A stretch of DNA of 61,953 nt from a virus: IMG/VR virus record IMGVR_UViG_3300045135_003620, positions 1 through 61,953 of that record, one strand, 5' to 3'. The translations under genes were made by a program, and so were the position numbers. This document shows, one piece after another, positions 317-9,194 of the stretch. The notes under the pieces are model-generated. The model made no database searches. It worked only from the letters and a program-made list of their open reading frames with translations, and was not told where the DNA came from. How positions within the stretch are numbered: the stretch's first letter is position 1; each line of letters starts with the position of its first letter.

Positions 317-1645
317 TTAATTCATTTCTGGAAGATTATTATCACATCTTTGTGCATTAGAGTGAGCCAGAACTTTCCCTGCGGAAGTAATGGTTAGCAT
401 AGTTGGGATGTTATCCCACCACTCTTTTAGAGCTTTTAAATTAGGTCTTTTTTCCCATTCCTCCATAAATAAATTGATATTTCTTTGTTTTAAACCATTA
501 TCTTGAGAGTAAAGGGAATAAATAGAATTAAGCGCACCTATTTGTTTTTCTGACAATCTAATGGGGGCAACAACTACAGAACCACCTTGTATAAACTGCT
601 GCTGCAGAGAAATGGAATCGATTTGAGCTTTATTGGGGATCGGTATCCTAAAATATTCAGAGTTTAAACTATGCTCAACCAATAGCTGCCTTGGCAAGTC
701 ATTATCATCAAGTATTTTTATCGCAGCCGTAAAATTCTCGGAGTCTTTTTGTATACCCACATCAATGTAGCCAGGCAATGCCTCGGAGTAATATTGCTGG
801 ACTTTCTTTAAGCTTCCAAAAGAGGTCAAGCGAATGGCATTAAGTATATCCAAGTGATCAAGCCATTCATGACCTACTGGTAGTTGGCTATAAATAACCT
901 TTTCAAACAGATCATTTAAAACATCTAAACCCTGATGAATGCCTCCACTAACAGGCAAAAAGCTGTTCACAGCATGAGCCACCGTTAAACCTAGTAAAGC
1001 ATCGTCAGAAATTTTATCCACAATATCTACCGCTAGGCTAATTCCGGCACGAGCTATACGGTTATTCCCTTTTTTAAACCTGTGCACAAGTAACTCTGAT
1101 AAAAGGTCATAATCTGCCGGCCTCTCTGTAGATGCTGCTGCTTTTTGAGCATTGACTAACAACAATTGAAAGCCTGGATCGGAAAACGCCTCTAAAGCAC
1201 CATCGACTTTCTCCATTTTAGGCATGAGACTATTCTCGAAATCAGTAATCCTGCTGTTAGCGATCGCTAATGCATCCTGAGTGTACTCTTGCCTAACCTG
1301 TAGATTCATTTCCTGAAACACCTCCCTCGCGCGTTTTTCGTCAATTCCGACATGCACTACCATGCTCTCAGCCTGCATCTGTTGAGAGCCCTCTCCTGCT
1401 TGTTGTATCCTTTTACTATCTGTGATGTTCTGATCACCACCAGCTTGGTAGTTATGGGAGTAATTTTCAGATTTCTGACTAAGATTCATCTTGGATTTTA
1501 TTTCGTCGCTACTAAATATTTGCGCGAGTAGTGCGCCAAACAAGCCAACCGATGTAACAGCAGGCTCCCAGTCAGGAGTTGTAACCCACCATATCACTGA
1601 TCCTATTAAAGCAACGAAACTTATTATCGCCAGTACTATTCTCAT
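317..1645 (-). CDS. Membrane-anchored protein, LPO_1073/Vpar_1526-like
   Basis: The 442-aa product begins with two hydrophobic segments (about residues 2-21 and 27-44), so it is probably held in the inner membrane by its N terminus. A polar linker follows with a QAGGDQNI motif (about 67-74), then a long predicted alpha-helical cytoplasmic region. The QAGGD-type linker followed by a helical region with AQ/DLLSELL-type segments resembles the LPO_1073/Vpar_1526 family as I recall it; its function is unknown to me. The ATG at 1645 has only a weak ribosome-binding site. It sits at the outer edge of the prophage on the integrase strand, a usual place for accessory or defence cargo, but no catalytic motif supports a role. 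Confidence 0.6.
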   Translation of the reverse strand: MRIVLAIISFVALIGSVIWWVTTPDWEPAVTSVGLFGALLAQIFSSDEIKSKMNLSQKSENYSHNYQAGGDQNITDSKRIQQAGEGSQQMQAESMVVHVGIDEKRAREVFQEMNLQVRQEYTQDALAIANSRITDFENSLMPKMEKVDGALEAFSDPGFQLLLVNAQKAAASTERPADYDLLSELLVHRFKKGNNRIARAGISLAVDIVDKISDDALLGLTVAHAVNSFLPVSGGIHQGLDVLNDLFEKVIYSQLPVGHEWLDHLDILNAIRLTSFGSLKKVQQYYSEALPGYIDVGIQKDSENFTAAIKILDDNDLPRQLLVEHSLNSEYFRIPIPNKAQIDSISLQQQFIQGGSVVVAPIRLSEKQIGALNSIYSLYSQDNGLKQRNINLFMEEWEKRPNLKALKEWWDNIPTMLTITSAGKVLAHSNAQRCDNNLPEMN

Positions 1646-3566: not shown

Positions 3567-4066
3567 TGTTGACCTCCTGTCTTTTTAGTTTTCTTGGGCT
3601 TCGCCGTTTGTTTGAGACCGAAAAACAATGGCCCCGACCAGCGGGTGCCAGTAATAAGCCGTGCGATTTCCGACAAGCTTTTATAGCGGCAATCTCGGTA
3701 TTCAAAGTCGCCATCCAACATGACTTTGACCTGATGGGTTTCCTCTCGGTATTCCCTAATCAGCAATGTGCCTGGCTCCAATGGTTGGGAATCAGATTTA
3801 TCTGCCTTAGGCGCGGTTACCACTAGTAGCTTTTCGATGCGATGCTCATTGCTTTTCAGCAGTTTCGGATTAGTTTTGCGAAATTCATTTTCCTGCAATT
3901 GGTAGCCAAGCCGGCGGACTAAGTAGGGCCGCTTGTTAGTCGGCGGCTCTGATGCAAATAATTCGCGCCATAGATCTTTCAGTTCACCTATTGGCATTAT
4001 CTTTAACTCATAGACTCTGGCGCTGACCGTGTCAGGCAACTTTTCTTGAGGTTTTTTGAGGTTCAT
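3563..4066 (-). CDS. DUF2924 family protein
   Basis: 167 aa, basic. The DUF2924 pattern is visible: ELKDLWRELFASEPP followed by RPYLVRRLGYQLQE, then a C-terminal beta-rich part with GTLLIREYREETHQV and YRDCRYKSLSEIARLITG. The last segment resembles a small DNA-binding or recombinase-associated fold. The family is commonly found directly upstream of serine recombinases in proteobacterial mobile elements, as here, with an ATGA overlap. Biochemical function is unknown; I infer an accessory factor in integration. It ends in a Lys-rich tail (KPKKTKKTGGQQ). Confidence 0.8.
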   Translation of the reverse strand: MNLKKPQEKLPDTVSARVYELKIMPIGELKDLWRELFASEPPTNKRPYLVRRLGYQLQENEFRKTNPKLLKSNEHRIEKLLVVTAPKADKSDSQPLEPGTLLIREYREETHQVKVMLDGDFEYRDCRYKSLSEIARLITGTRWSGPLFFGLKQTAKPKKTKKTGGQQ

Positions 4067-4075
4067 ATCGACTCC

Positions 4076-4424: not shown

Positions 4425-5321
4425 CTAATAAGGATTCTGACCATTCCTGATAAAGTGGTCGTAGCTATCCTCTACTAACTCATCTTCAATACTGGCGTCA
4501 TAGCCTGAGTCGACATTAGGCAGTAGTAACAAGGTCAGTATGTAATCGTACTGCTCTGCTGCCACCATCATTTCGGTAAGAATGACATCTGGACGTTCTT
4601 TGGCAAACCAATGGCAAGCCGGAACGGTTTGGCTATCGCCATACGCCGGTATTTCTTCCCGCACAGCAAGCGCCGAAGATGGCAATTCAAAGGTGGATTT
4701 TCTGGTGGCAAAAACGGCACCGGATTTATAAGCCGCATCATTGGATGACGCCCATAACATCATGCCTTCTCGGCTAGCAACTAAAACAGCGCGCTTGGGT
4801 GCAATTTCAATCCAGCGAAGCGCCGCAGCGGTAAGCGATACCCCGTAACGCTCTGCTAGGTGACTGAACAATTCAAAGCTGGGGGGTTCAGCAATGACTT
4901 GGTCTCTGAAATCATCCAAAGGCATCAACAATGTCGCGGCAAACACATCGGCCTCTTTCTCAATGGCAGGATCAACACCACCTGACCCGTTCGCTCCGCC
5001 GCACTCAAACAAGGCTTGTTGTTCACGGTGAAGAATGTAATGACCGAACTCGTGGGCAAGAGTGAAACGTCGCCTTCCTTCGTTAACAGAAGTACTATAG
5101 ACGATCATCCAGCGCGTATTGTCTTTGGATGCTTTGAGCATCCCTTCAAAATCATCAAAGTCTTCACCGACAACCACAGCGATGGGATCAGCACACGTTT
5201 GCTTGGAATACTCTAATGCAACACTTTCCACATCCACAGGAAACCGGTCAGGCCCCAACACCTGATTGAGCATTTTTGAAATCTGATTGGCTGCCTGAGC
5301 CGGACGCTTTGACTTCGCCAT
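4425..5321 (-). CDS. ImmA/IrrE family zinc metallopeptidase
   Basis: About 298 aa. A HEFGH zinc-binding motif at about residues 90-94 (FTLAHEFGHYILH) and a downstream glutamate in EKEADVFAATLLMP provide the three metal ligands typical of COG2856/DUF955. Proteins of this family cleave phage or ICE repressors to trigger derepression, as ImmA does in ICEBs1. Here the gene follows the XRE repressor with a TGATG overlap, so the partner is almost certainly that repressor. I take the ATG at 5321 rather than the TTG one codon upstream. The long C-terminal half (residues about 150-298) has no motif I recognise and could be the sensing part. Confidence 0.88.
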   Translation of the reverse strand: MAKSKRPAQAANQISKMLNQVLGPDRFPVDVESVALEYSKQTCADPIAVVVGEDFDDFEGMLKASKDNTRWMIVYSTSVNEGRRRFTLAHEFGHYILHREQQALFECGGANGSGGVDPAIEKEADVFAATLLMPLDDFRDQVIAEPPSFELFSHLAERYGVSLTAAALRWIEIAPKRAVLVASREGMMLWASSNDAAYKSGAVFATRKSTFELPSSALAVREEIPAYGDSQTVPACHWFAKERPDVILTEMMVAAEQYDYILTLLLLPNVDSGYDASIEDELVEDSYDHFIRNGQNPY

Positions 5322-5635
5322 CAATCAAATGCGTCGATGATTTTCTGCAATTTGACCTTATCTCCGTCAGAAAGTGACTTATATTTACGGAAAAAGGCGA
5401 GATCTTTTACTTCCTGATCCGGTGTCGTTTCAACGGGATTCATCAAATATTCCGTGGTCACTTCCAGTGCTTTCGCCAATCGTGCGATCTTATCTGCAGA
5501 GGGGTTAGGATCTTCCTTGGTTTCCAACTCCCAGAGATAGGCCTTGCTCGATTCGGTCAAAACAGCCAACTTGTCCAAACTCAATTTTTTAGACTTTCTC
5601 AGCTCTTTAATTTTTTTACCCAAGGGCGACGACAC
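5321..5635 (-). CDS. XRE-family transcriptional repressor
   Basis: 104 aa from the GTG at 5635, which has AGGAG about 8 nt upstream; an upstream in-frame GTG (5674) adds 13 residues but lacks a ribosome-binding site. HTH_3 domain at residues about 5-60: IKELRKSKKLSLDKLAVLT then SKAYLWELE, ending DKIARLAKALEV. The tail is acidic and helical. Being paired with an ImmA/IrrE protease and divergent from an operon with a strong promoter, it is the probable lysogeny repressor, acting in the 5636-5839 gap. Confidence 0.88.
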   Translation of the reverse strand: MSSPLGKKIKELRKSKKLSLDKLAVLTESSKAYLWELETKEDPNPSADKIARLAKALEVTTEYLMNPVETTPDQEVKDLAFFRKYKSLSDGDKVKLQKIIDAFD

Positions 5636-5708
5636 TATTTTTCTCCTATTTCCTAGACTTACCAAGTTATCCACAATATATCACCACACAAAACACAAAT
5701 ATACCGTA

Positions 5709-5839: not shown

Positions 5840-7057
5840 ATGCTAGATGCAGAAAACCTATGTAAACTCATCAGAAAAATACCGCCCGACACGTGCCGGG
5901 CATTCTTAAACAACCACTGTGTAGTAGCGATACCCGAGCTCGATACCAAACAGAATCTAACGCAACAACGCGCCGCGATCAGTTCAGTGCTGACGGCCTT
6001 GAGCATTGCCGAGCGACAACAGATAGAACAAATCGCTGAGAGCATCATTTTGCTATCGGATGCGCTAGGGCGTGACGCACTCGCTAATGTTTGCACAAAA
6101 AATATTAGTGTCGCCAACAAGGCTGTCCTCGATGCTATAAGCAACCAATGCCTCCGTGCCCTGTGGTTCTTCCAGAATGAACACGCCTTGTTCCTTGAAG
6201 CACTCAATGTCCGTCAGGCGGATTCATTCCGGCAGAGTCGAGCATGCTACTCAGGCTTTGTGGCGCCACCGAATCTAGAAATCCACAAGGATGAAGAAGC
6301 ACTAGATGCATTTCACTCGTCGATCGCAGAAAGGCTAGATTGCGCCAAACAAGATGTCGCCATTCAGTTATTTTGCCGACTGCGCGCTGATGCCAAATCT
6401 CACGATGACACGTTGCTTTACCAAGTGAGTATTCATCACAACCTGTCACCCGAGACCATTGAATGCGTCCAAGACAGCGAAGTTGTTGCTAATGACATCA
6501 TCCGCGCGATATCCACGCACATCACCTATGAACCCAATACTGGCCATCTTGAGGTGCTATCAAAAAAACATGAGGACAGAGCACCGATTGCCAGTCTTTT
6601 TGCCGACACGATTTTAGCGGCCCCGTTCGAAGGTCAGTCCATTCCGATAAAACAGTATGATTACCAGAGTTTGGCATCACCCAAGATCTTTAACGTTGCA
6701 GGAGAACCCATTCAATCCGTCAAAGTCACCGAACTAGGTTACGACGGTCGCAAAGGTGGCGCCTCCCTGACAAAAATGAAGCTAAATACCCCAGGAACCA
6801 TCTACCAGCGTGCTCGAGAACTGTATGACGACGATTTCGCGTTTTCAGATCACACGCTCACCTACGCCAAGATCTCAATCAAATTGAAAAAACAAGGTTC
6901 AGAGCGCGCTAGGACCGTGTCGATCATTTTCAGTGGCGAGAACCAATGCAACATCAAAAGTAAGCGAGAGAAAGACCGTGCATTGTGTGATCGCCTATTG
7001 ACCAAATGGGAATTCATCAAGGAGGTCGGTCATGCTGACCAATTTGTTACTGCGTGA
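5840..7057 (+). CDS. Conserved mobile-element protein of unknown function (405 aa)
   Basis: First gene behind the rightward promoter. I use the ATG at 5840, preceded by GGAGAGG; a TTG at 5798 would add 14 residues without a ribosome-binding site. The N-terminal ~150 residues are alpha-helical (MLDAENLCKLIRKIP). The C-terminal half is beta-rich, with a pattern I recall from paired hypothetical proteins of proteobacterial islands: VTELGYDGRKGGASLTKMKL, then SIKLKKQGSERARTVSIIF and GENQCNIK, ending LLTKWEFIKEV. No catalytic motif is seen. The 3' end overlaps the 328-aa gene by 26 bp, so the two probably act together. Confidence 0.7.
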   Translation: MLDAENLCKLIRKIPPDTCRAFLNNHCVVAIPELDTKQNLTQQRAAISSVLTALSIAERQQIEQIAESIILLSDALGRDALANVCTKNISVANKAVLDAISNQCLRALWFFQNEHALFLEALNVRQADSFRQSRACYSGFVAPPNLEIHKDEEALDAFHSSIAERLDCAKQDVAIQLFCRLRADAKSHDDTLLYQVSIHHNLSPETIECVQDSEVVANDIIRAISTHITYEPNTGHLEVLSKKHEDRAPIASLFADTILAAPFEGQSIPIKQYDYQSLASPKIFNVAGEPIQSVKVTELGYDGRKGGASLTKMKLNTPGTIYQRARELYDDDFAFSDHTLTYAKISIKLKKQGSERARTVSIIFSGENQCNIKSKREKDRALCDRLLTKWEFIKEVGHADQFVTA

Positions 7058-8018
7058 TCTTATTCGTCTGTTCGATTACTCGAACGCCGAAATCTCTTCG
7101 GGGGATGGCGAACACACGCAAGGCATACCTGCGTGGACGCTCAAGCGATTTGGACTAACACCCGAGCAACGTGAATATTGGTTCACTCGAGTGGGTTACG
7201 CTGATCACTGTTTTACCTGGTTTTACGATGAGGAAGTCGACGTTGAGGTAGAAGTCGATGATGACACCGGCGGCTATTTTTATCGGAGCCCCGAGAACTA
7301 TAAAATTCATACCATTAGCGAAGATGACATTGCCATTTACGCACCCAACACTGATCTAATCCTGCACACCATCGCCGATTTATTGGACATACCCATGGCG
7401 TTCCGCAGCGGCATCAACAAACCTGCCGTTGAGGACGTGCTTTGGAATTTGGGCAAAATGCGTATTGGTCGTGTTGATATTGATGTGTGGATTGCCAAGG
7501 AGTTTTCGTCCAGCAAACGAGAGGTTTATCACTATTTGGAAAGACCGGAATTACCCGAGCTTGGCATTTTACTGACCTGCGGCGGCCCCGTTTCTGAATT
7601 CACAAGGCGACCAAAGCGTTTTCAGATAGTCAGTCTGCTCGAAATTTTGCCGCCATCATCTGGTGCTGTGACATTTGACAAGCAATCGATCGAAAACATG
7701 GTCTCGCATACTGAATCGTCTGCGCTTACCCATTTATTTCCGGTCAATTTTAATGAATACACAAATGCTTTAACAATTGCCTCAAAAACAGAACCTTGGA
7801 TAATTGGCGGGCCTCGCCAAGCTGCTGCTATCAAATATATGGTTGAACAAGCCCATAAAGGTCGCTGGGAATTGCCAGCATCTGAGATATTGGGAGCAGC
7901 CTATGGAGATCAAAGTATGGGGCGAATTAGGCGAATGCAAGATTTGTTCAAGAGCAATACTTGCTGGAGAAGTTATATAAACAATCCTCGAAAAGGGATC
8001 TGGGGCTTCCTAACCTAA
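7032..8018 (+). CDS. Unknown partner protein with C-terminal winged-helix-like domain (328 aa)
   Basis: The ATG at 7032 has GGAGGT 5 nt upstream, inside the previous gene. The N-terminal part is acidic (DEEVDVEVEVDDDTGG at about 68-83), the middle resembles no family I know, and the last ~70 residues (GGPRQAAAIKYMVEQ to NPRKGIWGFL) look like a small winged helix of the kind that ends in a PAWxxxI...R+G-type wing. Known: genes of this shape recur as a pair with the preceding one in genomic islands. Inferred: a two-protein DNA- or RNA-associated function under repressor control. It converges on the NYN gene with a 23-bp gap. Confidence 0.7.
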   Translation: MLTNLLLRDLIRLFDYSNAEISSGDGEHTQGIPAWTLKRFGLTPEQREYWFTRVGYADHCFTWFYDEEVDVEVEVDDDTGGYFYRSPENYKIHTISEDDIAIYAPNTDLILHTIADLLDIPMAFRSGINKPAVEDVLWNLGKMRIGRVDIDVWIAKEFSSSKREVYHYLERPELPELGILLTCGGPVSEFTRRPKRFQIVSLLEILPPSSGAVTFDKQSIENMVSHTESSALTHLFPVNFNEYTNALTIASKTEPWIIGGPRQAAAIKYMVEQAHKGRWELPASEILGAAYGDQSMGRIRRMQDLFKSNTCWRSYINNPRKGIWGFLT

Positions 8019-8731: not shown

Positions 8732-8754
8732 TGATTCTTATTCCCCCTGATACG

Positions 8755-8779
8755 AAAAAACCGGCACTAGGCCGGTTTT
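8755..8779 (-). terminator. Intrinsic terminator, leftward
   Basis: Perfect 9-bp stem AAAACCGGC / GCCGGTTTT with a 5-nt loop. On the minus strand the stem runs into six T residues (8755-8760 read as A on plus), so leftward termination is favoured; the rightward side has only four T. Confidence 0.75.
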
Positions 8780-8829
8780 CTCACCCTAACAGCCAGCGAA
8801 CTGAATTACTGCGTACAGGGTTAAGTTGT
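8755..8829 (-). ncRNA. Candidate short leftward RNA (oop-like) or nyn leader
   Basis: A strong leftward promoter (8836-8864) would start transcription near 8829, and the intrinsic terminator at 8755-8779 would stop it after about 75 nt. The predicted RNA has a possible ACCCU/AGGGU pairing around a CAG-UUCG-CUG mini-hairpin and then the terminator stem. No ORF of note lies inside. It could be a free small RNA, comparable in size and position logic to lambda oop, or an attenuated leader of the NYN gene. Inference from sequence signals only. Confidence 0.45.
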
Positions 8830-8835
8830 GTATGA

Positions 8836-8864
8836 ATAATAGGTAAATTTTAGTCCTTCGTCAA
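8836..8864 (-). promoter_or_regulatory. Sigma70 promoter, leftward
   Basis: Read on the minus strand: -35 TTGACG (8864-8859), a 17-bp spacer, -10 TATTAT (8841-8836). It points toward the terminator at 8755-8779 and the NYN gene beyond it. Confidence 0.65.
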
Positions 8865-8885
8865 TACCGGCCCTAATTTCTCATT

Positions 8886-8951
8886 CCCCCCATCAGCCCC
8901 CCCCATCATGTGGGCTGACGCCCCCCCATACACCAAACCAAACTGACGTCA
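8886..8951. repeat. C-run cluster with inverted repeat upstream of early operon
   Basis: Three cytosine runs (6 at 8886-8891, 8 at 8897-8904, 7 at 8921-8927) and a perfect TCAGCCC/GGGCTGA inverted repeat (8893-8899 and 8912-8918). A TGACGTCA palindrome follows at 8944-8951. The cluster lies 30-95 bp before the first early gene and may hold early-promoter control elements; I could not identify a convincing rightward -10/-35 pair here. Confidence 0.4.
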
Positions 8952-8981
8952 CGTTTTCGCAATAACCGATAGGAGAACCCC

Positions 8982-9194
8982 GTGAACGTCAAACACATCA
9001 ATCAAACAGAACTCTCCGAGCGCTGGCAGATCAGCGCCCGGACTTTAGAACGCTGGCGCAAAGAAGGTATTGGGCCGGTTTATCTCAAGATGCATGGTCG
9101 CGTGACTTACCGAGAGGAAGACATTCTCGCCTACGAGGGTGGCTGCCTTCGCAAAAGCACTTCCGAATACGCCGACGAAGGAGACCTCGCATGA
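8982..9194 (+). CDS. Excisionase/AlpA-like HTH protein
   Basis: 70 aa from the GTG at 8982, which has AGGAG 6 nt upstream. A MerR/HTH_17-type domain fills the protein: LSERWQISARTLERWRKEGI, then a wing GPVYLKMHGRVTYREEDILAYE. Such small proteins act as excisionases or transcription activators. It is the first gene of the early operon and overlaps the next by ATGA. Which of the two roles applies cannot be told from sequence. Confidence 0.7.
   Translation: MNVKHINQTELSERWQISARTLERWRKEGIGPVYLKMHGRVTYREEDILAYEGGCLRKSTSEYADEGDLA

Follow-up and report, generated by a model that had tools for sequence, protein, structure and literature searches.

Organization of the promoter-RNA-NYN locus

The window, by which we mean the whole 61,953-nucleotide stretch of viral DNA analyzed here (IMG/VR record IMGVR_UViG_3300045135_003620), is a phage with terminase, portal, major head, and tape measure genes. 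Its minus strand carries, in order, a sigma-70-type promoter (8864-8836; -35 TTGACG at 8864-8859, a 17-nt spacer, and -10 TATTAT at 8841-8836), the segment ACAACUUAACCCUGUACGCAGUAAUUCAGUUCGCUGGCUGUUAGGGUGAG, and a terminator hairpin with its U-tract (8779-8755). Transcription is predicted to start at approximately 8829, yielding a predicted structured small RNA of about 75 nt (about 8829-8755, annotated as 8754-8829) that we propose as an RNA antitoxin. The intrinsic terminator (8782-8754) reads AAAACCGGC (8779-8771), CTAGT, GCCGGTTTT (8765-8757); its stem has a perfect 9-bp core, or 12 bp counting flanking pairs, its loop is CUAGU in the transcript, and four of the six T at 8760-8755 lie inside the stem. 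Beyond it stand a Shine-Dalgarno-like AGGGGG (8748-8743) and the gene of a 229-aa NYN-domain (PIN-like) ribonuclease (8731-8042), the proposed toxin, whose ATG (8731-8729) begins about 23 nt past 8754. The RNA and NYN are encoded on one strand, and no gene lies opposite the RNA. As the terminator separates the promoter from the NYN gene, read-through would set NYN expression, unless there is a second promoter.

The promoter, the perfect 9-bp stem with six T, and an NYN start just past the terminator had all been named in an original prediction, and each was found. Taken alone, however, the promoter was at chance level: 4 kb of the region held 4 promoter-like sites versus 4.3 expected, the one at 8864-8836 being the best of the 4. 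The hairpin at 8779-8757 was not among the predictions of a terminator scan of the window. Because promoter matches in this region were at chance level, conservation was taken as the deciding evidence. Promoter and terminator by themselves are not beyond chance; the whole unit is conserved. Its most informative part, a structured core at 8821-8783 upstream of the terminator, was missing from the original prediction.

Conservation and structure of the RNA

Relatives of the NYN protein were confirmed by tblastn and taken from viral contigs and genomes. Approximately 40 close homologues from gamma- and betaproteobacteria had the same RNA 15-40 nt ahead of the start codon, with the consensus ACRACUYAnCCC(U)..GCAGCGAUUCAGUUCGCUGGC..AGGGUGAARAAACCGGC-loop-GCCGGUUUUUUCG, and the RNA was present upstream in almost all NYN relatives above approximately 40% identity. 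Only two clear exceptions lacked it: in one the gene abutted the end of its contig (L048), and in the other NYN was truncated at its N terminus (L050). Sequence upstream of the promoter was largely unrelated from locus to locus, and the RNA-NYN contexts, which included prophages, chromosomes, and plasmids, were unrelated to each other. The promoter -10 ended 4-5 nt ahead of the start of the RNA model in 35 of 44 homologous loci, and this spacing pins down where the 5' end of the RNA is predicted.

The window RNA folded at -31.3 kcal/mol (z = -4.7), a value equaled by 0 of 200 shuffles. Stem P1 (8821-8783) pairs 8821-8817 with 8787-8783, with an inner extension of 8815-8813 with 8790-8788, and encloses hairpin P2 (8811-8794), in which 8811-8806 pair with 8799-8794 around the conserved hexaloop UUCAGU (8805-8800; UUMAGU or minor variants across homologues). 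A covariance model built on 18 close sequences then picked up more divergent groups; it matched the window at 8752-8831 with 95.5 bits, the window being one of the model's own sequences. Where the model also matched the complementary strand of such a site, the match represented the palindromic terminator. Among 90 distinct sequences, in alignments fitted to the structure and hence biased toward it, 93.9% of cells were paired and both-side changes occurred in 18 of 29 pairs; 0 of 500 shuffles were as high, and slid registers reached at most 58%. All eight pairs of P1 changed on both sides, P2 was paired in 93% of cells with both-side changes in five of its six pairs, and the covariation of both was also visible by eye. 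The terminator was paired in 99% of cells in homologues. Covariation was also computed on an earlier alignment of 49 sequences. A putative pseudoknot between 5'-ACU and the loop AGU was compatible with the sequences, pairing in 94% of cells; it was nearly invariant, and changes of the loop G to A were mostly uncompensated. A search of Rfam with the whole window and relatives returned no family at gathering score for the RNA, and the sub-threshold matches were terminator-like. The discrete RNA of about 75 nt with its own promoter and terminator, as originally predicted, is thus strongly supported by conservation, covariation, and the spacing of the -10.

In 300 genomes of one genus, most matches to the RNA model preceded NYN, and a reverse search with the NYN protein, in which coordinates were compared with the RNA-model matches, placed the RNA directly upstream of 37 of 37 intact full-length close NYN genes. 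At 15 of the 52 RNA places there was no intact NYN, through frameshift, early stop, deletion, or total absence; these RNAs kept P1, P2, and the terminator, and usually the promoter too. Two of the 15 (G177 and G027) had a divergent RNA variant ahead of another gene. An RNA outlasting its NYN gene is the pattern expected of an antitoxin, and may be partly explicable by mutational target size, as an 80-nt RNA is set against a 690-nt gene. A search of viral sequences with the RNA pattern alone led to L123 and L124, both with NYN, while a second viral search with the Pseudomonas-type RNA gave no matches.

RNA copies ahead of other genes were observed. One locus (L021) had a second copy (3987-4069, 73.7 bits) approximately 1 kb upstream of its RNA-NYN unit, with U-A in place of C-G in the putative pseudoknot, preceding an ORF of nuclease-like appearance (HNH-like by eye). 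In two genomes, a divergent RNA variant with promoter-like sequence and terminator (L180, 1449-1527; L181, 1426-1501) preceded an unrelated, uncharacterised ORF (approximately 171 aa in L181).

The NYN protein and its wider family

The window protein matched Pfam NYN (E=2.8e-8) and, over residues 2-222, the PADLOC profile HEC-09 (E=1.9e-24). Its AlphaFold2 model had a pLDDT of 92, and the best structural neighbours found by Foldseek were the NYN ribonuclease domain of MARF1; the modeled fold is NYN/PIN-like and not that of ToxN/AbiQ. A PDB search with the protein sequence found no relative. An alignment of 34 homologues showed no change at residues D8, D122, and D154, which by motif are the counterparts of the catalytic aspartates in a CRISPR-associated NYN ribonuclease (PMC11346440). 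In plasmid records including OW969600.1 and OW849292.1, the NYN protein was labelled 6-hydroxy-3-succinoylpyridine 3-monooxygenase HspA, which is probably a propagated misannotation. One homologue (L112, 2992-3963) had a C-terminal Xre/MbcA/ParS antitoxin domain fused to NYN, with a related RNA upstream.

The original prediction considered it unusual for a structured RNA to precede a nuclease gene; we agree, and the pairing recurs across the NYN family. A terminator-like hairpin was found within 130 nt upstream of 83 of 117 NYN homologues from many phyla versus 21 of 963 control ORFs (p~1e-75, with homologues that are non-independent and control ORFs that are mechanical). The window RNA is one unit with no tandem array. 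Ahead of two distant NYN genes (L116 and L120), by contrast, stood an RNA array of four units of 29-33 nt plus a terminator, with unit spacings of 33, 33, and 29 in L116, and two further loci (L113 and L118) had a looser array of two GCGAUUAAGUUACGC hairpins whose loop is that of the window family. The array-bearing loci were on small enterobacterial plasmids, those of L116 (954-1081) and L120 being ColE1-type miniplasmids from Klebsiella and Escherichia. When RNAs upstream of very distant NYN genes were aligned, they reached only 45% identity, and a single common family was rejected: the layout was shared while the sequence was not. We lean slightly toward the view that NYN ribonucleases act as toxins throughout a broad RNA-neutralised toxin-antitoxin class found in phages, plasmids, and several bacterial phyla. 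The small RNAs, either one structured unit or a tandem array, would belong to several unrelated families, and each would be flanked by a promoter and a terminator immediately ahead of the gene.

Phage context and mobility

Sibling phages shared a gene order of a capP-like gene, a capH-like gene, two genes, a slot, an HTH gene, and the 9191 gene, the slot being defined as the interval between homologues of window 7032-8018 and 8982-9194. NYN was absent from the viral contigs with the window's gene order. Their slots instead held an HI1420-type antidote (TIGR02684; L187 and L188), a Doc toxin (DOC_P1; L206), a YafO toxin (L192), or a YjaZ-like protein (L186). Because siblings keep toxin-antitoxin parts in this slot and not NYN, the RNA-NYN unit most likely arrived as a moron, at a site that these phages use for toxin-antitoxin genes. 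Elsewhere, the unit adjoined integrases or sat on plasmids whose sizes ran from a few kb to hundreds of kb, and in one case (L058) it was inside a type I restriction locus, directly upstream of hsdR. In PLSDB, 434 plasmid records contained NYN homologues; Klebsiella accounted for about half of the records, and the smallest plasmids were 3.5-5 kb.

Other features of the window were observed. At 4425-5674 on the minus strand, a CapP-like protease (PADLOC capP E=5.9e-65) and an adjacent CapH-like HTH protein (capH E=3.2e-31) take the position expected of a phage repressor, and the pair is kept in sibling phages. C-rich repeats (CCCCCCATC..) at 8880-8981 lie ahead of an early gene at 8982; at this position siblings have CCGTACATC repeats, possibly operators or iterons. 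Near the left end is a 442-aa protein of the LPO_1073/Vpar_1526 family (317-1645, minus strand).

Proposed module and alternative explanations

Our findings suggested that this segment is probably a self-contained type III-like toxin-antitoxin module carried as a phage moron, with an NYN ribonuclease as toxin and the RNA as its antidote. Support at the level of sequence came from the conserved unit, the RNA structure, the NYN linkage, the intact active site, the distant tandem arrays, and the toxin-antitoxin slot.

For transcription, RNA-protein binding, toxicity, inhibition, and trigger, we infer the following scheme. The promoter would yield an abundant folded RNA of about 75 nt with a 5' ACRACU tail, P1, P2 with the loop UUMAGU, and the terminator hairpin. 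Polymerase that occasionally ran past the terminator would produce a longer mRNA and allow low-level translation of the NYN ribonuclease, so that the RNA would be in excess over the toxin at a ratio set by read-through, as in ToxIN. The RNA would bind the NYN protein and keep the enzyme inactive, like ToxI on ToxN. If transcription or the element itself were lost, as by phage takeover or plasmid loss, the RNA would decay and the ribonuclease would be freed to cut RNA of the cell or the phage, and growth or infection would stop.

The attenuation of NYN offered in the original prediction survived in part, as the terminator does separate promoter from gene at all intact close loci, and the weak GTG or TTG start codons of most close homologues are consistent with tight control of expression. 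The RNA might then be no more than a cis-acting leader, with terminator read-through governed by NYN or some other factor bound to P1/P2, and with no trans-acting antitoxin. We consider this unlikely, as it leaves unaccounted for the RNAs that persist without NYN, the tandem arrays ahead of distant NYN genes, the toxin-antitoxin slot, and the mobility of the unit. In addition, the terminator and P1/P2 are non-overlapping, and a competing antiterminator was not seen in an unsystematic look. Nor was there a conserved leader peptide: ATG was absent from 81 of 99 RNAs, and the terminator loop length varied by single bases. Attenuation alone explained less than the type III-like module.

Alternatively, NYN could be a ribonucleoprotein defence effector that uses the RNA as cofactor, guide, or sensor and is active as a complex with it, for example in recognising phage RNA. 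The exposed loop UUMAGU is conserved, the protein belongs to the PADLOC candidate defence family HEC-09, and a CRISPR-associated NYN ribonuclease acts on RNA in a defence setting (PMC11346440). However, the RNA was retained after NYN loss, no variable guide-like segment was found in its alignment, and the slot is common to ordinary toxin-antitoxin modules, leaving such an effector improbable.

The original prediction also likened the RNA to that of lambda oop, an antisense RNA. That the RNA works by base-pairing, as an oop-like phage regulator or a type I antisense antitoxin, with the downstream NYN coincidental, is very improbable despite the similar length, promoter, and terminator, as the RNA is on the NYN strand with no gene opposite, its linkage to NYN holds on phages, plasmids, and chromosomes, NYN is missing here in sibling phages, and complementarity to its own NYN start region was not beyond controls (-21.0 kcal/mol versus -20.3 swapped and -20.6 shuffled); the likeness to oop is not supported.

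If the type III-like module is correct, the NYN/PIN-like ribonuclease fold would enter the small set of RNA-held toxins, and the common hypothetical "NYN domain-containing protein" would gain a function. In the one genus that was sampled, roughly one genome in eight had a close NYN homologue. The module would also explain plasmids and prophages with a ribonuclease gene but no obvious protein antitoxin, give PADLOC HEC-09 its missing RNA partner, and provide single-unit RNA antitoxins that are easily tested. In the open-access literature searched, no account of an NYN toxin paired with an RNA antitoxin was found, and an earlier description elsewhere is possible. The comparative set allows the RNA to be searched for in existing small-RNA data.

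Comparison with known systems

The window NYN and the tandem-repeat homologue L116 both matched HEC-09 (the latter with E=2.2e-34), although the PADLOC entry is of a protein only, and we found no RNA partner described for it in the open-access literature searched. In a correlation study of Pseudomonas, HEC-09 was associated with phage susceptibility, not resistance (PMC12447246). The CRISPR-associated NYN ribonuclease is similar in its domain and corresponding catalytic aspartates; however, it is a type III CRISPR accessory that is Mn-dependent and of relaxed specificity, and an RNA antitoxin was not described for it (PMC11346440).

The closest layout was that of type III toxin-antitoxin systems (ToxIN, CptIN, TenpIN, and AbiQ), which are mobile and likewise have a promoter, an RNA, a Rho-independent terminator, and a ribonuclease gene on one strand. 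The array-terminator-ribonuclease layout is the working definition of such loci, and the Rho-independent terminator that it places between RNA and toxin gene was present in the window (PMC5086642). The tandem repeats of approximately 33 nt in the distant homologue L116 are a further likeness. In contrast, the window toxin is NYN/PIN-like while theirs have the ToxN/AbiQ fold, the close NYN family has a single RNA unit while the described antitoxins are arrays, and their antitoxin RNA is pseudoknotted while the pseudoknot of the NYN-linked RNA is putative. That 0.8 of a repeat was insufficient in AbiQ (PMC5086642) counts, with the single unit in the window, against the module that we prefer. Membership in the ToxN family was excluded by the NYN fold (Pfam NYN; MARF1 by Foldseek) and the single-copy window RNA. 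We use the label "type III-like" because the locus departs from the described families in two defining features, the toxin fold and the array.

Two systems outside the ToxN family offered further parallels. AbiF-RCd22 of a Clostridioides difficile prophage is also a prophage nuclease gene behind its own RNA with promoter and terminator, and its RNA of approximately 100-130 nt behaves as a type III antitoxin (PMC12373285); it differs in having two RNA motifs and an Abi_2/HEPN protein unrelated to NYN. In AvcID, the toxin is a deoxycytidylate deaminase and no terminator is predicted between RNA and toxin gene, but a non-ToxN enzyme is likewise inhibited directly by an RNA antitoxin, and the system is activated when phage halts host transcription (PMC10511110).
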